A stretch of DNA of 64,000 nt from Sanghuangporus weigelae (taxonomy: Eukaryota; Basidiomycota; Agaricomycetes; Hymenochaetales; Hymenochaetaceae): positions 1,581,501 to 1,645,500 of the forward strand of contig CP137326.1 in the NCBI GenBank assembly GCA_033182465.1, written 5' to 3'. How positions within the stretch are numbered: the first letter of the stretch is position 1; each line of letters begins with the position of its first letter. The notes beneath the pieces are model-generated. The model was not told where the DNA came from. It saw only the letters and a program-made list of their open reading frames with translations, and made no database searches. Both the position numbers and the translations under genes were made by a program. Below, one piece after another: positions 4,809 through 52,712 of the stretch.

Positions 4809-6367
4809 CTACGTTTGTATTGATGAGGTGGTCTGAGATAACAATCGTTAGTTGATATATATATAAAAAGCGCAGTAGATGGAGCTTACCGCGAAGGGAC
4901 GTTCGCGAGGTAGGATAACTGGGCGGGTATAATTCTCGCTGCACCACGACGAACGTCAGCACCTACTCAAATAGGAAAAAAGAACGAAGTAATGCTTACC
5001 CAGAGCGGAACATCCTGAGGTACTTTAGAGCAAAAGTCTCGATCTCGTCAGGCACGACGTCGACCACGTCCCAATCGCCGGGCGTGTCCACGTCGTCGAT
5101 GAAGCGCCTCTCAACCTCGTCAGGGCAAACCGTCTGCCACCATACGTACTTAGTCCCCTTTGCGAGCCAGAGTGCGACGGGCTTTGGGAGCACGGGTGCC
5201 TTGGACATGGGCTGGTAGGTCACGGAAGCGATGAGTTCGAGAAGGTACTGGTACGTGAGGGTGGATGGACCAGGCAGCGAAATCGTCCGACCGAGGGGAG
5301 GCATGCTGAGGAGGTTAGTCAGTGCTTGCGCAACATCCATGACCTATGAAGGAAAGCATGAGATGCGTATATGACCGACTGGAGCGGAATTGCAGACTAA
5401 CATGCACTGGACGGATTTTTGTTTGTCCATAGTTTAGTTTCCACCATATGGGCCATCCTGATTTTCAGCACTAAGATCATTTCAGAAGGTAGATTTGAAC
5501 CGTCGACTTACTAGCCATGTTCGTCAACAGTCTGTCCTCGTAGCCGAACAAAGTTCCAGGACGAACTATCGTCGAGCCCGGGAAGGCCTCACGTACAGCC
5601 AATTCGCCCTCGTATTTGGACGCGTAGAACTGAGATGGCGAGTTCTCTGCAGCATTAAGATGAGATACGTGAATGAAGTTGTCTACGCCGTTCTCTGCTG
5701 CGATACGCGCGATGGATTCGGCGCCCTTGACATGGACGTCGTAGAAATCGAAGTTCCTAATATTTGTCAGGATACGTATAAGTTGCGGAACATGTCAAGC
5801 ACAAACTTCGTTTCGTAGTTCCGTCCGACGAGGTTATACACGGTGTCGGAATGCCGTAGACACTCTACGGTCTGCTGCTCGTTTCTCAGATCCCATTCCT
5901 TTCGTTGGACTCTTCAGCTAAGTATGTATCCGAGGCGATGACAAAAACGCACAAGCGGAATGATTTGCCCCAAGTCGCCCATTACCTTCAGATGGCGTTT
6001 CTCATCCTCGTCGCGGTAGGGTACGATAACGCGAGTCCCAGACTTCGCTGTACAGAATATTAACCAGTATCTCTCAATTGCAAACCGAAGATGAACCTAC
6101 CGATCTTTGAGATGAGATACCTCGCCAGAAAACCGGTCGATCCGAAAACTGTGACAGTGTGTCCAGTCACTGCACTTCGACCAGGCGGACCATAGGATAT
6201 GATGGGTTTGCGGGAGGTCGTCGTGGTAAGGTCATGCAGACCGCGCTGTAATGACAATTCATTTCCATTTAAATATTAAATACCGTGTTTATAAGTTGAA
6301 TTTATACCTTTTTGGCGGCTGTGGCCAATCCTCTCGAGCACACACGGCTCGAGGACGCTGCGAGCAT
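4809..6367 (-). CDS. NDUFA9: NADH:ubiquinone oxidoreductase 39/40 kDa subunit (NDUFA9), complex I
   Basis: This is an accessory complex I subunit of the atypical short-chain dehydrogenase type that binds NADPH at the matrix arm. Nine exons in coding order: 6367-6308, 6245-6101, 6047-5953, 5898-5807, 5756-5512, 5457-5402, 5343-5000, 4938-4890, 4832-4809; about 369 aa. The N-terminus is a mitochondrial presequence. The nucleotide-binding loop VTVFGSTGFLARYLISKI follows, then VIVPYRDEDEKRHLK, MGDLGQIIPLEWD, NLVGRNYETKNFDF, NFIHVSHLNA, a retained YASK, and RPGTLFGYEDRLLTNMA. The last two exons, encoding a short tail, are the least certain part. The start faces the SET-TAD3 start across 152 bp. 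Confidence 0.94.
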
Positions 6368-6519
6368 GACGACCGATGTTGAGCGAGGATGCGAGCTTTC
6401 GTGAAACGTCGAGTTACCAGATACAGCAGGTTTGCTAATACTTGCTTATGTCATTTCAAAATACTTTGGTCGAAATTTTGAGCTTATTTCATTTGTTTTC
6501 CCGTTTCTTCTACCTGGTC
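6368..6519. promoter_or_regulatory. Divergent promoter between NDUFA9 and SET-TAD3
   Basis: Only 152 bp separate the two start codons, so both promoters and both 5' leaders must fit here or reach into the first exons. No TATA box was recognised on either strand. Confidence 0.45.
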
Positions 6520-8402
6520 ATGTTGGAAGGTTCTTCAAGCGATGTTCAGGGAAACAACTTCTGCATCATAAGAAAATCTGCAGGAAAAGGACGAGGCTTG
6601 TTTGGTTCGTGAACATCTCATGGACCTGCAACGATTCATCGTCAACCAGCTTCAGCTTCTAGGCAAATCTCAGCTCGCACTGTAATCGAGTCAAGTCCTG
6701 TATTACTCTTCTCCTCTGATGAGTACGAGACTCACGGAAAGCATACCATTCTTGATCACTATACGTTCAAGTGGCCGGATGGTCGTATGGCACTGGCACT
6801 GGGACTCGGTGAGTTTCATCCCGATGATATCAATCAAATGAAATCTTTATTTTAACATTATCTCAGGATCACTATTTAATCATTCAGACGACCCAAATGT
6901 TTCTTTCTCTGTAGATTCTACGAACGATATTATTCGATTCACGACGACTCGTACCGTCGACGAGGGTGAAGAACTCTGTATTTTCAATGAACATAAGCTC
7001 TGGTTTACTCCTGTCGAGTCAAGTCTCACAGTGCAAAACGGATCGGCCTTGGAGTCACTGGGTGACTGTGATACACTTAAAACTATGAATTCAGACAGAA
7101 CAAACCCATTCTCGGAAGGAACCCCTGCAGAACTTGTGAATGAAACTGATTTGCCTTTCTTACGAACACGAGTGATTTCTGACGATGACGAGGAGGATGA
7201 GGAGGGCTTAGTTAGAACCAGTAAGCTTTGTCGTTACTACAAGAATCTCTCTGATATTGATTCGACAACACGTTAGTAAAAGCCTGGATTGTCGACGTTC
7301 CGGACCCGAAGAAAACATCACTATTACTGAAGTAAGCCAAACCAATGCCTAGACGCGGTATAGAGCTTTGACAATGATGTTCCATTTCCTCAGATGGATA
7401 AAGGCCGCAGACCTCGAAACTCCAGACTTGGTTCACCTGAAGCGGATACGACGAGCAGGACCCGTCTCTTCCTTACTTCTTTCGGCTTCTGTAGTTCCTC
7501 CTCTCATCCCTGAAGACTTCCACTTATCCGAGCCCTATCAAGTCGACGTACCAGAATCGATAGCTCTGACACCGAAGTCGTTGAAGCTCAAGACCCAAAT
7601 CTGGCCAACGGTTTACGCACCTCGGCGGAAGGGCGAACCGGAACCGTGGTGTAGGGCGAAGGCAGCCTGGGCATGGGAGGCCGTGGAGGTCTTGAAATCC
7701 GAGGCACGACAAGCGTCAAAAGGCGGCGAGGTGTGTATGCCCTGAAATCGAGTAACAATTCTGTAATTAATTAATTTCTTCGCGGATCAGTTACCGATCG
7801 TTTCCTACGTCCCTCAACATTTTATTGAGGAGGAAAATGCAGGAGACGCGCTCCCGTCTTTCCTGGCATTTGACACTCGACAATCCACTTCAAACCCGCT
7901 CCGACATTCTGTCCTGAATGTCGTGCGCAAAGTCGCAGAGTGGCGCGCGGTGTACCAGCCCTCCCCACCGAGGAACTCGACGCCAATTATAGGATCTCCT
8001 CCCTCCGAACCCGGAATAGCCGTAAACGAATCTCTGGAATCCTCCTTGGCACGTACAGAAAATAGTCTGGCTTCTGGCGAGATGAAGGTCGACGTTCGCG
8101 TTCCCCGCACAAACGGCACGCATTATCTTCTGACAGGACTCACGCTATTCACTACGCACGAACCCTGTCTTATGTGCAGCATGGCTCTTTTGCACTCACG
8201 AGTTCGCGAGGTCGTCTTCCTACGCGCAATGGATGCGACAGGCGGCTGTGGTGGTTCGACAGGGCGTGGAACGTGCGTTCCGCGGTTAAAGGGGGTGAAT
8301 CATCGATATAACATTTTAAGATGGAAGACTGCGGAAAATGCTGAAGATGATGTTGATGATTGGGCGCTTATAACTCGGTTACCTGAAGATGTGGATGCCT
8401 AG
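6520..8402 (+). CDS. SET-domain / tRNA adenosine deaminase subunit TAD3 fusion
   Basis: The predicted 525-aa product joins two modules. Exons are 6520-6604, 6674-6808, 6867-7220, 7277-7331, 7394-7730 and 7791-8402; every phase fits. Residues about 10-115 form a compact SET domain with KGRGLFA, VIESSPVLL, LDHYTFKW, ALGLGSLFNHSDDPN and DEGEELCIF. An acidic linker follows. From about residue 192 it is TAD3: IVDVPDP, LVHLKRIRR, the deaminase zinc site LRHSVLN (HxV where a catalytic HxE would be) and EPCLMC near residues 446-451. In known fungi Tad2-Tad3 turns A34 into inosine in tRNA anticodons, and Tad3 is the non-catalytic partner. The SET partner's target is unknown. The ATG at 6520 is the first in frame. 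Separate transcripts for the two halves are the main alternative. Confidence 0.85.
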
Positions 8403-18808: not shown

Positions 18809-20497
18809 TTAAGTTTCATTTTCTTTTCTTTTCTTCTTCCGTACAGTGAGCACCGTTACGTGTCCGTGTCCACCTACAGCAGCACCCGTGTCGGCGGTGC
18901 CGTTCTGTATTGATACTGGAGGCGGCGGCGGCGGCGGCGCGTCGGGGTTTGATATCGAGATGTCGCCATGTACGAAAGACGAGTACGCGTCCGCCGACGG
19001 CTCAGGTTCAGGGAACGGATTCGGCGATATGTCTATGTCTTCGTTTAGTTGGGATAGTGAAACCGGGCGTCGCGGAGGCGTCTTGGGAGGTTCGAGGGAC
19101 TGTCGGGAATCCTCCTCCTCTCCTTCTCCGGTTTGGCCTTTCTTTGTGGTAGGATCACCCGCTCCGTCGCCGAGGAGGAAAGGAGGTGGCGCCCTTCGCG
19201 TTGTTGTTGTTGTTGTCGTTGTCTCGTGGATTTGTATCCCACCACTGCAAAGTCCACGGACGGACGCTTCGAGGATGGACGTTGCTCGCAGCGAGCGCTC
19301 AGTCGTCGAAAATTCGTGGCTCGTCATGAGCGACCTGATCACCCGCTCAACAAGGTGGTGTGAGACTTCACCTGGCTGAGGTGCTAAAGCATTCGTCGTT
19401 GATGTTCCTTCTTTGACCGCAGATACGGGTTTGGAGTATGTGTCCCGAGACGGGAAGACGAGCACGAAGAAGCCGGTGACTGCACCGGCGACGCATTCCT
19501 GACGGAATGACATACGCTCCCAGAACTCGTCCGCACTCACTAAGCCTAATTCTCCTTCAATCCGCGTTTCCTTGTCCTTTTCCTTGTCGGCCTTCTTATC
19601 CGTATCCGTCCGCCGACGCTTTCGTGAAGGCGAATGCAACCCATCGACTCGCGTTGTACAGGCGATCTCATCGATGAATCGCGTTTTTGGATCGTCATCG
19701 AACGATGGGATTAATTGTCCAAGGTTGTATGGCTCTATTGCCTTTCCACTAGGAACATACGGCAGAGGTATCTCCTTCTGCGAATAAGGATGTCCGTATA
19801 TCCACTTTGGGCTCTTCGTTTCGTTCGGCTTCAGAGCGTCACCAAGAGCTTGCAGCGCTTCAAGCTCATTCATCCCAGGCAACACGTAATACAACCTCGC
19901 GCCCCCCGCATCGTGTCCCAATTCCTGCACCATACGTCCCAGCAAGCGCTTCCACCATGAACATAACTTGACATCATTAAGGGGTTTCTTTGATGGGTGT
20001 TCTGCCGAGTTTGGGAATAGATATTGCCGTTCCGCACGAGCAAATAAGTGGATCCAAAGTGTCGTCCCTCGGAGTTTCGTCGGCCGTGTTTCTGGTGAGG
20101 CGTAGAATGAGATGAGAGCACTTACAAGTGCAGTTGTCGGAGAAGGACGTTTTCCTTGTCCTGTCGAGTCTACTTTCGCAACATATAGGATAGCACTTGT
20201 CGTGGCAGGGATATGGAATAGGGTCGCTTCGATGGCTGTGACGAAGGTGTGCTGGGGCTCAGTCGGAGTCGATTGTGACCCGGACTTCAACTCAACTTCG
20301 GCCCTGGTACTCTGATCAATGTCTACTTCCTCTGACGCAAAGATGAGGATGTCCTGGGCATAAATACGTGGCCGCGTCGAAGCGTACGGGAAAAGTTCTC
20401 CATATTTGTGCGGAGCGGAGACGAGAACGTGTACATGAAAGCGTCGCGTTCCCGGGAGAGCCTTCAACGCGTCGAGTAACTGATCTCGCAGTTTCAT
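18809..20497 (-). CDS. RTT109: Histone H3 acetyltransferase RTT109
   Basis: Rtt109 is the fungal p300/CBP-related enzyme that acetylates new histone H3 (K56, K9, K27 in yeasts) with chaperones Asf1 and Vps75, in replication-linked chromatin assembly and genome stability. The gene is a single exon of 562 codons. Family blocks in order are LILY-like AILYVAKVDSTG, LFARAERQYLFPNSAEHPSK, LNDVKLCSWWKRLL, the acidic active-site segment SFDDDPKTRFIDEI near residue 265, and EFWERMSFRQEC. A basic KRRRTDTDKK insert precedes the last block. The C-terminal 200 residues are low complexity (Thr and Pro runs) and end in a lysine-rich RKKKRKENET. The start at 20497 gives MKLRDQLLDAL, as expected at the N-terminus. 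Confidence 0.93.
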   Translation of the reverse strand: MKLRDQLLDALKALPGTRRFHVHVLVSAPHKYGELFPYASTRPRIYAQDILIFASEEVDIDQSTRAEVELKSGSQSTPTEPQHTFVTAIEATLFHIPATTSAILYVAKVDSTGQGKRPSPTTALVSALISFYASPETRPTKLRGTTLWIHLFARAERQYLFPNSAEHPSKKPLNDVKLCSWWKRLLGRMVQELGHDAGGARLYYVLPGMNELEALQALGDALKPNETKSPKWIYGHPYSQKEIPLPYVPSGKAIEPYNLGQLIPSFDDDPKTRFIDEIACTTRVDGLHSPSRKRRRTDTDKKADKEKDKETRIEGELGLVSADEFWERMSFRQECVAGAVTGFFVLVFPSRDTYSKPVSAVKEGTSTTNALAPQPGEVSHHLVERVIRSLMTSHEFSTTERSLRATSILEASVRGLCSGGIQIHETTTTTTTTRRAPPPFLLGDGAGDPTTKKGQTGEGEEEDSRQSLEPPKTPPRRPVSLSQLNEDIDISPNPFPEPEPSADAYSSFVHGDISISNPDAPPPPPPPVSIQNGTADTGAAVGGHGHVTVLTVRKKKRKENET

Positions 20498-21797
20498 GAG
20501 TTTCGTCTTGACTTTCGGATCACTATCTGAAATTCTGATTCAGCACTCCTTCAACGCGCAGTCAGAGTGTGCGAAGCAAAGAAAGAACTGTTCAAATCAA
20601 AAAGGAGCTGCTCGACGTAAACCTCAGCTAAAGCACAAAGACAGCATATCTTTCGAGACGCGAAGCGTGTTCAGAACCGAGCCGACTGACGCATGCTATG
20701 GCTAGCGATGGTAGTGGTACGGATTCAAGCCTGAGTGTGTCCCTTTGGCCTCAAGTGCGCGTGTCAGCACGTGCTCGTGATCCGCCTTTCCTGATATGGA
20801 CTAGTCGAAACAAATAGACGTGGACCCACAAATTCAATCAAACAAGAACTAACGGATCCAATGGAATCTTTTCAAAGCGACTTTCTGCTAGCGACTGTAT
20901 ATGAGTCAAGCGAGCTACAAAACTTCGATATGCTCTGCAGGAGCAAACTGGTAATGTGTCGCCCATTTTCACCGCAATCAGCCACAAAGAAACGTGGTAT
21001 TGATTCTTATTCTATCCGTGGAGTGGAAGACAAGAACTTTTCATAATCTGCACCTTTACGACGACCAGCTCATCCCGTCCGACCTGGACAGCGAAACGGG
21101 GTATCGCTACAACGGTGATAATAATGCGGGAATTCTGGGTGTTGCTTCTAGCAGCGGTATTTGCGAATGCATTTTAAGTAATTTATTCCCTTCCGACTGG
21201 GAAGCATTAGGTCGGTAATATGATAATTGAACCGGGTTCAGGTCAAGCATAAGTCATGATTTTGTAAGCTTGACTTACGCATTATATTGTAATATATGTA
21301 CATATCTGAACTACTACATCCTGAGTTGGGATGTAATTGTTATATAGAGTACGGTACTACGAAGCGGCGGAAGTTGGGGTGACAAAAATAAGAAAATTGG
21401 CGCGTCACTCTCCATTGTTATTCGCTATGATACATCAAGCCTCAAAGCTGTGATGGCTACCTCGAGATGCGGAACGTAAGCAGAGGGATATGAGTGATGC
21501 AGATCATGTGCTTCCACCACATATCTCATCGAGCTATCAGAATGTTCGTTCTTCGCAGCGACTTTCTGTCGGCATTGTCTGTAAATCAAGTGTTCTAGAT
21601 AAATGCTGTATGTCTTGCGGAAGTAACAAGTGTAACAATCCACTCGTTTTCGCCATGATAGTTCAAGAAGTAATTAATCATGATTGAATTCCATGGCTCG
21701 GATAAATGTAAACTACTTTCTTGCTCTTCGTAAATTGAAATTGATGTTTGTAAGGTCAAAACCGACTGGATATAGTCTGTACCTTTACAGTACTAGC
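20498..21797. other. Intergenic region upstream of the 5S rRNA gene
   Basis: About 1.3 kb with no protein gene recognised. It contains a decayed 5S rRNA copy (listed) whose 5' flank also resembles the flank of the intact 5S gene. The last 250 bases are AT-rich. Confidence 0.5.
21053..21150 (+). pseudogene. 5S rRNA pseudogene, 5' part missing
   Basis: CATCCCGTCCGA, an AAACGG block, CAACGGTG and GCGGGAATTCTGGGTGTTGC line up in order with the 3' two thirds of the 5S gene at 21798. The first 30 or so bases of the RNA are absent and the rest has many changes, so it cannot fold as 5S. A CTGCACCTTTACGA stretch just upstream matches CTGTACCTTTACAG in front of the intact gene, pointing to a segmental duplication. 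Confidence 0.7.
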
Positions 21798-25647: not shown

Positions 25648-27438
25648 TTACAGCTTCACCTGTGCCTTGAACTGATCCTCTGTAACACCCTTACCCATAG
25701 CCGCCGTCGAGCTCACACCGCCCGTGATGGTCTTGAGCAGTCCGTCCACATACTCCGCACCACTCCATTTCTGATGCGTCAGCACGTCGCACCCAATCTC
25801 CCTCTCCCGCCTCTGGACAATCTCAACATACGCCTTCATGCCCTCCTTCTGGAACGCACTCGCGAACAGGTCGGAGATGTAGCCGTTGCTGTGCAGTCCG
25901 CCGAGTGTGATGAACTGCCAGACGAAGCCGAATTTCCCGAGCTCCCAGATGTACGACTTCATCTCCGCCGGTCCGAGGCCTGCGGCTTCCCAGTTGAACG
26001 ACGGGGAGAGGTTGTATGCGAGCCAGACGTCGGGGTGCACGGCGTGCACGCCCTGCGCGAATTCCCGAGCTTGGGAGAGGATAGGCTTCTTCGTCTCCAT
26101 CCACAATGCATCGGCGTACGGAGCGTACGCGCACGAACGCGCGATGGCGCATTGCGTACCGCCCTGGTAGCGGTAGAACCCTTCCCGTGTCCTCGGAGCG
26201 TCCCAGTCCCAGAACGGTGCAGTCTGAAGACCAAGTCCCTTTGCCAGTGCGAGAGCATTGTCTTTTGAGAGCGAGTGGACTCTAGATTGGAATTCTGCGA
26301 CGCGGGAGCCGGTGAAGGAGGGTGATTGGGCAACGAGGGCTTCGGTGAGCGCGTCGCCGTAGGTTTTGATACCAGCCTGAGTAACCCAGGCATCCTCGAC
26401 GGCCTGCAAAGCATCGCCGACCTTACCGGAGGCTTCTGCCTCATTCATGACAGTCACGAGCGGGCGGAGTGAAGGGTTCGTCGAACCAAGGATGAACGGA
26501 TGGTCCCTCTCATCAACATTGGTCGTAATGAGCGTAGCAGCCTCCGAATCCGTACGGCACACGATCAAGTTCTCCACTCCCATAATGTCATATTGCAATC
26601 TAATCGCCACCAAGCGGTTAATGTGTTCCTGGATGGGGACGAGGACTTTCCCAGCCATATGTCCGCACTTCTTCGTTCCGGGTGCCTGGTCCTCGATGTG
26701 AATACCCGCAGCGCCCTTCTCGACAAAGAGCTTCGCAAGCTTCATGACCGCCGTGAGACCTCCGTGGCCCGTGTCCGCGTCGGCGATAATGGGGCGGAGA
26801 TAGTCAATTGCCGGTGTGGCTGCCCGCTCCGCGTCGGACATGCGGAGACGCTCTTCCCGCTGCTTGCGATCATGGAAAAGCTGAGCCATGAACAGGTGCT
26901 CGACCTTGTTTGGAACGGTGTTAGAGGGGTAATCTGTAGCGGAGTTAGTGGAAAGGATCAGGTATTGACAAATTATTCATTCTACGTACCTGCGAGATCG
27001 GGACCTGGCTCGTTCGTGCTCGACGCCGTGCTGGAGGTTTGCCAACCGGAAACATACACTGTCTCCAAGTATTTTGCCATCTGAGTGACTTGCACCGGAT
27101 CAAGACTTCATAATTTACTTCGTATCAGATCAACTTCAGAGACATGTTCTAATACTTACGCTCCGTAGGTATGAGACGGAGTCTTGTTCTTCCAGTGCTC
27201 CGAAAGTAACCGCCATAGCTTCTTGCCCTGGATGTCCGAAGGATACGAAATCGGGATTGTGCCGCGCTTTGAGACGACCTGATCAGCAGTGTACGGCCGC
27301 TTGGTTCGTGCAAAGCGTGGACTCTGTCGTCATAATAAGCACACTTAAGAAGTTTTGAATGAATCATATAGTGCATACCTTCCAACGCTGCTCGAGTTCT
27401 CTAACTTCCTGCTCAAATGCAAAGCGCTCAGCTGCCAT
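25648..27438 (-). CDS. ICL1: Isocitrate lyase
   Basis: Isocitrate lyase splits isocitrate into glyoxylate and succinate, the entry step of the glyoxylate cycle needed to grow on acetate, ethanol or fatty acids; the fungal enzyme is usually glyoxysomal. Coding-order exons: 27438-27379, 27323-27160, 27105-26990, 26933-25648; about 541 aa, normal for fungi. Landmarks are [41 protein letters not shown], the catalytic loop KKCGHMAGK near residue 200, [15 protein letters not shown] and [11 protein letters not shown]. The C-terminus AQVKL is not a plain SKL-type peroxisomal signal, so its import signal is not evident. The downstream ADH could feed the same C2 metabolism; co-regulation is inference. 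Confidence 0.97.
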
Positions 27439-39354: not shown

Positions 39355-42128
<2,774 letters not shown>

Positions 42129-49981: not shown

Positions 49982-52712
49982 TCATGCGACGTAGGCAAAT
50001 ATGTCGTGCGCGTCATCTACACGATTCATATACTCCTGCTCGAGTAACGCGTCAATAGCCTTCTTGATATCCGGGATGTTTGGCGTGAACCGGGCAGATA
50101 CATGCGAGATTACTTCCTGGATTAACTCCTGATTCTTCATTGTCTTTCGTGCTTTCATAATTCTGTGAATAAGCATGATAAGTAAAGTAAGTATCAAAGG
50201 AAACTGGTTAACCTGCACGCATACCGAACAATCGTTGCTTGTAAAGCAAGCTTACGATCCTCATCTACGTCCTTGAGAACCTCTATACTCTCCGCTTTCT
50301 CCACTAGTTTGATGGGCTGGTTCAGGTTTACCCTGATCTTCTTCGACTTATAGTCTAAAGCAATATCGCGATAGTATCCGTTTATCCCCACTGAGGTAGT
50401 GGAACACTTACTCATATTCAAGTCGTATGGTTCGCCTTCCCCATCATTGAGCAGAACACGAGCCTTGCACAGAATGCCTAGCACCTGTTTCAAAGGGTCC
50501 TCACAGATACCCGTATTTGTCTGTATTTCCTCGAACGACAGCGAATCGTAGTCGTTGTACTGCACAAGCACGGCCATCTGAAACGAGCTCGTCAAGAAGA
50601 TACATTTCTGGGACGTGTAATTTGAATGCAACTCGTTCTTGCAATATGCCCAGAGCCAAGTCAGTCTTCGCCCGGAATACTTCTGCTGGTAGTATTGCCG
50701 GAAGCGGTTGTATGTCGGCAATATCTCCTTCGGGATCACAAAGTTCATGTCTAGAGGTTTAAGCGGCCAGACGTTCGTTCCAAGGACCTGGATGGTAATC
50801 GTGAGGTCGTTATCCACTGGATGACTGACGGCCATCTTCTCTTTGAAGGAATCTGTCAGGTCATTGCTCAAGCTCGAGTCTGAAAGCAGAAGTAACGTCA
50901 GTGGCTGATGCAAGGAAAGTCCTTATCCAATTATCCTTACCAGTCAACATCCGCTCCAATTTCTGTGTGTACTCGAACCCACATACCTCTTTCAACCTCG
51001 AGATCATGCTTGATTCAGCCTCATTTGAGGCGGAAACGTCGTGAAGAAGGCGCTTCGATAACTTGTGAGAATAGAACCTCAGGAAAATGTCTTTGTCTTC
51101 GATGTACTTGAAAATAGTCATCTAGCAGTGAACGAGTAAATTGTTAAAAGGAGTCCAGGATATAGGTACCTAGAATGCATACTATTTGCTTCATTCCACT
51201 TTCAAGGCTGGTGGTCTCTTCCGACATCTTGTTCTTCTTGCGAAGAAAAGCATCGGCGTACTTCGCAAGCAACTCTGCACTCTTGCTCGATGAGGAACTA
51301 ATTGCAGCATTTCGATTCACGAACTCCTGGCAAGCCTTATCCAGACTAGTGATGAATACAGGTTCGTTATGGAGGCGGGCAATCATCTCGCTGTTCTTCT
51401 TGTGCACCTCAATGAGAGTGTCAACGTATCCTGCAGGATCGATGCTCTTCTCCCCATTTCCATTCCCGCCGCCCATAAGCTCCTCAACAGCAGCCAGTCC
51501 CTCCAGCTTAAATCGTTCCTCAAGCTTCTTGCACAGCAGCTCGACCCCTTGCGGAGAGTTTGATAAGCGGACATACATTCGGTGCGTATCCTCGTCGTTC
51601 CCAAAATCGAGAAGGTTTTGGAATTCCTCCCATACGGTCTCGGGGCTTATTTGAACAACAGCACTCACATACGCGCGCAGAAGAGCTGCCCGGATAGGAG
51701 TACGCAGGTAAAGTTGATCGACAAGATCTTCCTCCTCCTTCACTTTCTCTTCAGCCATTTCGAGGTAGTCAGAAACACTGTTGTTGACAAGTATTTTCAA
51801 GACCTCTTGTTTGTAACAAATTTCCGCGGCGGTAATGAACGGCGTCTCATATTGATCTTTGTACATATCGAGGGATTGCTTATTTGAATCCGTCTCTTCG
51901 ATTCCCAGAGAAACAAAAGAATCTATAACTTTCTTCACGAGGGTCTGATCGATGGTCTCCCCGTTCCTTTGCTTCTCGATTTGCGTAAGCACGGCACGAG
52001 CAAGTTCCTTATTGAGCATGTGATTGACAACGAACTGCCTCCATTGCACTAATGCTAGCTAAGCTAGCTCATTAGAGAAACAGTAGCGCAAAAAATGGGG
52101 GCAAATGTCTTACAACGTAGATCGTGTAGATACCCCTTCTTAATCCTGGCTTGACCCAATCCTGATTAATAGTGGAGAACAGTCGATTGATGCACTTTGC
52201 CCCGGTAGTATATCTGTTCCATTCTTCTGCGTAATGTCTAAGCAAATCCTCATCGACAAGAGACGCTGAGCCCTAAACAACACGCATCAAGTAGGAACCA
52301 CACGATGCAAGCACTAGACGAGACTTACCTCCATTACAGTCTTTAAATGGGCAACGAGGTATTCTGCGAGTCTGTTATATAAGAGTTCGCTGCCCACTGT
52401 AAAGATAAAAAGAGAGAGAGACGTCAGTATCAAGCCCGCCAGCATTTTTGCGGTGTATTGAGATGGAATCCTGCAATAAGGAGAATGAAAATACTGACTT
52501 TGACGAGTCCCAACGATTCCATGCATACGCACAGTAGTCTTGCAGTAGTTGTACGAGACGGTGTACAAGGTCATGTAATCAGAGTAGGTCGCTCGGCCTT
52601 TGTGGAAATTCATCATAACATCATTGACTCCCTCCTCGAGGAATCTCCAGGTCGTCTCAAGGTCCGCGTTGGCGGGTGGGATCGGTCGCGAGAACCATGA
52701 TGAGACAGACAT
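49982..52712 (-). CDS. Cullin-1 paralog, copy B
   Basis: A second full-length cullin-1 with the same eight-exon plan as copy A. Coding-order exons: 52712-52499, 52396-52329, 52272-52114, 52058-51183, 51121-50941, 50879-50412, 50354-50225, 50162-49982; about 758 aa with no internal stop. The Skp1-facing [15 protein letters not shown] is kept, as are the [10 protein letters not shown]-type [13 protein letters not shown] block and the Nedd8 site in [20 protein letters not shown]. The C-terminal half is very close to copy A. The N-terminal half is more diverged, notably [20 protein letters not shown] where copy A has RYLHTCTRKTLVATCEHVLI. Start chosen at the ATG giving [13 protein letters not shown]. 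It looks functional and may have altered receptor choice; that is inference. Confidence 0.9.

Follow-up and report, generated by a model that had tools for sequence, protein, structure and literature searches.

The DNA analysed here, referred to as the window, is a 64,000-nucleotide stretch of the basidiomycete Sanghuangporus weigelae (assembly GCA_033182465.1, contig CP137326.1, positions 1,581,501 to 1,645,500 of the forward strand), from a genome of 33.87 Mb in 13 contigs. It carries a gene whose product has a SET domain in front and a complete Tad3 behind, joined by an acidic linker about 65-70 residues long. The gene model spans 6520-8402 on the plus strand and consists of six phase-compatible exons in one joint frame, with GT...AG introns of 51-62 bases. 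Its features are as follows.

6520..6604, plus strand: exon 1, N-terminus and beginning of the SET domain (NNFCIIRKSAGKGRGLF), aligned to S. pombe Set7 from aa 17
6605..6655, plus strand: intron 1 (51 nt), revised acceptor at 6655, which makes the Set7 alignment gap-free
6656..6808, plus strand: exon 2, middle of the SET domain, placed by the Set7 alignment
6867..7220, plus strand: exon 3, end of the SET domain, linker and beginning of the Tad3 N-domain (EEGLVRT), in a single stop-free frame
6875-6886, plus strand: FNHS motif, within exon 3
6965-6976, plus strand: GEEL motif, within exon 3
6986..6988, plus strand: codon of Asn120, at the SET catalytic-tyrosine position
7007..7220, plus strand: linker, from aa 127 through the first Tad3 N-domain residues, these included
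7085..7087, plus strand: in-frame Met153, a possible internal start for a 379-aa Tad3-only product
7277..7331, plus strand: exon 4, Tad3 N-domain (IKAWIVDVPDPKKTSLLLK)
7394..7730, plus strand: exon 5, Tad3 N-domain (HLKRIRR ...)
7791..8402, plus strand: exon 6, Tad3 deaminase-like domain with HSV and PCLMC; stop codon at 8400-8402
7905-7913, plus strand: HSV, exon 6, aa 367-369
8163-8177, plus strand: PCLMC, exon 6, aa 453-457

An earlier reading made from the sequence alone had proposed a six-exon gene with a 525-aa product. Its exon phases and GT...AG introns stand, but its intron 1 acceptor most likely does not: that model is six SET-domain residues short and leaves a six-residue gap against Set7. 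Moving the acceptor 18 bases upstream keeps the phase and gives a product of 531 aa, whose match to Set7 improves from 101.8 to 118 bits (E 3e-33). The revised junction reads FASRQISARTVIESSP, the same length as its Set7 counterpart FALEPIPAQTCIEISP, and the alignment indicates 6656 rather than 6674 as the most likely start of exon 2. An in-frame ATG at 6448 could put 24 residues in front of the protein; we have kept 6520 as the start.

On the minus strand, at about 5477-6367, lies a gene (VTVFGSTGFLARYL) that resembles an NDUFA9-type subunit of complex I. Roughly 150 bases separate its possible start (6367) from the fusion gene, and a divergent promoter region may therefore serve both. Also on the minus strand are a HAT_KAT11 histone acetylation protein (18812-20539, E 1.5e-37), of the Rtt109/p300 type, and an isocitrate lyase (25651-26976, E 2.5e-208). 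Two cullin genes in opposite orientation (39375-41881 and 50223-52704) come with inverted repeats, eight pairs with 73-90% identity and a spacing of about 8-13 kb, a local inverted duplication; the Pfam Cullin scores of the frames scanned are 278 and 186 bits, and one copy seems more diverged. Elsewhere, the host genome holds 16 hydrophobin matches and two matches (E 8.6e-5 and 7.2e-4) to the Pheromone family PF08015, a family known from basidiomycetes; both findings are consistent with a basidiomycete of the mushroom type.

A SET domain fused to Tad3

The fusion of a SET domain to Tad3, which the sequence-only reading had proposed, is confirmed in the sequence; domain matches, exon phase, a common exon, linker codon usage, and the failure to find a second copy all back it. 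The domain search suggested at that time, run on the 525-aa version, places both families above their Pfam cut-offs: SET, PF00856 (E 6.6e-9, 36.6 bits, cut-off 22.4) and dCMP_cyt_deam_1, PF00383 (E 1.3e-6, 28.7 bits, cut-off 25). Taken as sequence matches, those of both halves in the PDB and Pfam are far beyond chance. The motifs named in that reading, FNHS, GEEL, HxV (as HSV), and an intact PCxxC (as PCLMC), are all present.

The end of the SET domain and the beginning of Tad3 lie in one exon (6867-7220) and in one open frame without a stop, and this exon contains the last two fifths of the SET domain. Codon usage is coding-like across the join. The linker at 7007-7220 scores +17.0 bits in frame, against -62.9 to +3.6 in the other five frames, on a codon score trained on nine stop-to-stop frames of the window, of which eight were scanned with Pfam and two of those had no match above cut-off. 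Along exon 3, the true frame ranks first of six in 9 of 9 sub-windows, the last of which reaches 8 bases into intron 3; in two of the nine its margin over the next frame is under 1 bit. Exon 1, too short for the test, scores -2.4 in frame versus +0.2 in the best other frame.

It is thus highly improbable that two adjacent genes, one for a SET protein and one for Tad3, have been wrongly joined by a spurious splice: with both ends in one stop-free frame of exon 3 (the Tad3 beginning, EEGLVRT, aligned with ADAT3 chains), such a reading would require overlapping genes. Intron 3 speaks against it as well, with the form GTAAGC...TTAG, a CTGAT branch-like site, and a splice that yields the Tad3 frame. 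We infer that a single transcript joins the two halves.

The locus could also give rise to several products: the full fusion, a Tad3-only protein begun at Met153 (7085) or made from an internal promoter, and possibly a protein with SET alone through retention of intron 3, making the SET domain optional. Met153 sits between the SET and Tad3 domains with an A at -3, and a retained intron 3 ends in a stop (7274-7276). In Fusarium, TAD2 and TAD3 have alternative transcription starts, and TAD2 has alternative translation starts as well, according to passages of PMC11087585; the same paper gives both TAD3 transcripts a single ORF, which counts against the idea, as does a linker that is coding-like throughout and leaves no non-coding gap for a promoter. 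We consider several products unlikely; such an arrangement can be compatible with the explanation that we prefer below, and the readings discussed here are not all mutually exclusive.

The SET half and its missing tyrosine

The nearest relative of the SET half is fungal. Among 177,635 distinct PDB sequences, its top match is 'SET domain-containing protein 7' (5h6z, 3e-33), whose chains, together with 5ww0, we take to be S. pombe Set7; PBCV-1 vSET follows far behind at 6.5e-9. The SET domain and Set7 are identical at 58 of 116 residues (50%) with no gaps, and an unrooted tree of 19 distinct rows groups the two with an ultrafast bootstrap of 92. Set7 resembles the window SET over the whole domain and differs from the fusion in being a 169-aa chain without a deaminase match. 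The vSET of the Chlorella virus PBCV-1 (A612L, 1n3j) is a small single-domain SET protein, 30% identical to the window SET and not fused. S. pombe Set7 has been reported to methylate H3K37 and to be required for gametogenesis (Shen et al. 2019, Structure, as cited in PMC9145779). A scan against NCBIfam gave a sole match, to the SET part, whose 15.7 bits fall well short of the 550-bit cut-off. We considered a viral origin of the SET half and dropped it, given its fungal nearest relative and the two introns within the SET part.

Two motifs of the SET fold are intact. In SET domains, the glycine motif and the NH of FNHS line the pocket for S-adenosylmethionine (SAM). Both glycines of KGRG are common to the window and to the 16 distinct rows, of 18, that reach that far, and FNH retains its N and H in the window and in 18/18 distinct rows.

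The tyrosine that follows GEEL is catalytic in SET enzymes. In the window, GEEL is followed by CIFN, and the residue at the catalytic-tyrosine column is Asn120; relatives have a tyrosine there, in 23 of 23 other rows and in all 18 that remain after duplicates are removed. The motif segment reads NEELCISYGDHLWF in Set7, GEEITISYGDDYWL in vSET, and GEELCIFNEHKLWF in the window: Set7 has ISYG where the window has IFNE, and vSET, unlike the window SET, keeps its catalytic tyrosine (residue 105 by alignment count).

The alignment at this column comprises the window, Set7, vSET, and 21 fetched relatives (4 prokaryotic and 17 viral). The 23 comparison rows are therefore 21 viral or prokaryotic loci at 19-36% identity, one viral vSET, and Set7 as the only fungal row. 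The fetched relatives came from a search with a three-row alignment, which yielded 4 relatives among 100 pattern matches in genome_contigs and 17 among 126 in viral_contigs; these collections consist of viral and prokaryotic contigs, and the relatives are usable for the catalytic residue and not for the question of fusion. Since 19 of the 21 loci were matched by the FNH pattern only, which is blind to the tyrosine column, the search did not select them for tyrosine. The viral relatives (L028-L044) are 17 metagenome contigs whose small SET frames are relatives of vSET and Set7. Another locus, on a Planctomycetota MAG contig (L024, 2962-3378), encodes a 139-aa SET frame with the motifs GLFNHSDDPN and QLTIDY, 37% identical in its best segment to the window SET.

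The host genome served as a control, searched by regular expression. Among eight other SET loci, four showed the motif: three (L004, L005, and L006) have a tyrosine at the same spacing, and one (L003) is cut off soon after the motif. The regular expression found no motif in the remaining four of these eight loci.

Together, these observations make the SET half a probable pseudo-methyltransferase, one in which, judging from the residues, methyltransferase activity would have been lost. The sequence-only reading had suggested lysine methylation tied to tRNA modification, and this suggestion is weakened by Asn120 standing where 23/23 relatives have tyrosine.

The SET half might instead be catalytically active, a lysine methyltransferase attached to the deaminase that acts on Tad2 or Tad3, on a translation factor, or, like Set7, on K37 of histone H3, with Asn120 either tolerated or an assembly error. 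The missing tyrosine is one codon in one assembly, and a single wrong base could in principle explain Asn120. Activity also gains from the intact glycine and FNHS motifs and from 50% identity to Set7, reported as an H3K37 methyltransferase (Shen et al. 2019, as cited in passages of PMC9145779). It is the absence of the tyrosine that all 23 relatives possess that tells against it. The residue after this column, Glu in the window and in 0 of 23 other rows, also points away from activity, and says little because that column varies (Gly in 8/23). On balance, we think an active enzyme rather unlikely.

The loss of the tyrosine would also suit a decaying remnant, in which a recent accidental fusion left the SET half under no selection. 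The state of the rest of the domain argues otherwise: identity to Set7 is 50% across it with no gap, stop, or frame break, exons 2 and 3 have coding-like codon usage, and no second copy was found to take over. Decay is accordingly a distinctly doubtful explanation, and a SET half that is kept, and probably non-catalytic, is the reading that we carry forward.

The Tad3 half, its partner, and copies in the genome

The deaminase part has TAD3 (7bv5_C, 1.5e-14) as its top PDB match, followed by ADAT3-type chains. We take 7bv5_C to be yeast TAD3, 7nz7_B and 9hmm_B mouse ADAT3, and 8aw3_3 the trypanosome protein. As in these chains, the C-terminal domain of the fusion is deaminase-like with PCxxC: the zinc motif is intact as PCLMC (aa 453-457). 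The catalytic HxE is replaced by HSV (aa 367-369), read from the sequence outside the printed HMMER alignments. The start of the Tad3 N-domain, EEGLVRTIKAW...HLKRIR, aligns with ADAT3 chains at the expected place, a weak match alone (E 0.1).

The solved TAD3/ADAT3 chains are 317-369 aa long with no SET domain described, lengths that fit the earlier claim that well-studied Tad3 proteins have no methyltransferase-like module. Passages of PMC11087585 give Fusarium Tad3 428 aa, and those passages describe no SET domain in it. They assign tRNA binding to its N-domain, to which Ame1 also binds during mRNA editing by the complex in sexual tissue (PMC11087585; also passages of PMC12754623). Ame1, the Fusarium editing activator, belongs to the DUF726 family, of which the host genome has three matches at two loci.

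Tad2 is encoded by a separate gene: an exon with HAE and PCIMC has 'tRNA-specific adenosine deaminase 2' as its top PDB match (8.9e-21). PF00383 occurs at six places in the genome, one being the fusion gene and one Tad2; the fusion protein matched none of the other four at E 0.001. We found no second fusion, Tad3, or Set7-like gene in the genome, in searches that score only the best candidates, exon by exon, which limits this statement. One further Set7 match, at E 0.008, is another SET gene of the host (L006), with FNHSCEPN and ELCISY. In viral_contigs, the SET part and the Tad3 part as lone queries gave 27 and 7 pattern matches, respectively, and no relatives.

Both halves belong to known families. 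Among the literature matches listed, titles and the beginnings of abstracts contained no description of a SET-Tad3 fusion, in searches that covered few subscription papers. A co-mention of SET domain, Tad3, and tRNA was set aside, Tad3 being there the abbreviation of Telomere-associated protein 3. A survey of deaminase-fold architectures by Iyer and colleagues (2011) may mention such fusions. The fusion may well be present already as a predicted protein in fungal protein databases.

A proposed role for the SET module

We propose that the gene yields a single protein of 531 aa, in which the acidic linker connects a Set7-type SET domain to a complete Tad3. Judging from its family, the Tad3 half would be the catalytically inactive member of a pair with Tad2, the product of a separate gene, in the conversion of A34 to inosine in tRNA, and would also help in tRNA binding. 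The SET half would be kept as a SAM-binding, peptide-binding, or dimerizing module beside the RNA-binding N-domain of Tad3, where it might tune the assembly of the deaminase, its choice of substrate, or its location. Because the glycine and FNHS motifs are intact and the tyrosine is gone, a binding or structural role is likelier than methyl transfer. We lean slightly toward this explanation as a whole: one 531-aa protein, in which a SET half without catalytic activity serves the wobble-inosine deaminase as a structural module or as one that binds peptides or SAM. The role that the module would have in the deaminase is our inference. As a counterpoint, 50% identity to a reportedly active relative and intact motifs are also to be expected of an enzyme with unusual chemistry.

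Non-catalytic SET proteins are known: yeast Set3 and mammalian MLL5/SETD5 have kept the SET fold and lost catalytic residues, as proposed for the window SET. Unlike the product of the window gene, they are chromatin proteins with no fusion to an RNA deaminase.

A more speculative extension, to which we give limited credence, is that the protein is a double pseudoenzyme, with neither the tyrosine of the SET domain nor the glutamate of the deaminase subunit, and serves as a built-in sensor of SAM or of histones or peptides, controlling wobble-inosine editing of tRNA or mRNA editing in sexual development. Each half has a relative with a sexual-development tie: Set7 in gametogenesis (Shen et al. 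2019, as cited in passages of PMC9145779) and Tad2-Tad3-Ame1 in Fusarium fruiting bodies (passages of PMC11087585).

The codons that a tRNA reads are set by an essential enzyme of which Tad3 makes up one half; in some fungi, Tad3 takes part in mRNA editing too. A Set7-type module on the sole Tad3 gene found would bring a chromatin-type domain into the editing complex. If the SET module is enzymatically dead, the gene would provide a clean test of why SET pseudoenzymes are kept.
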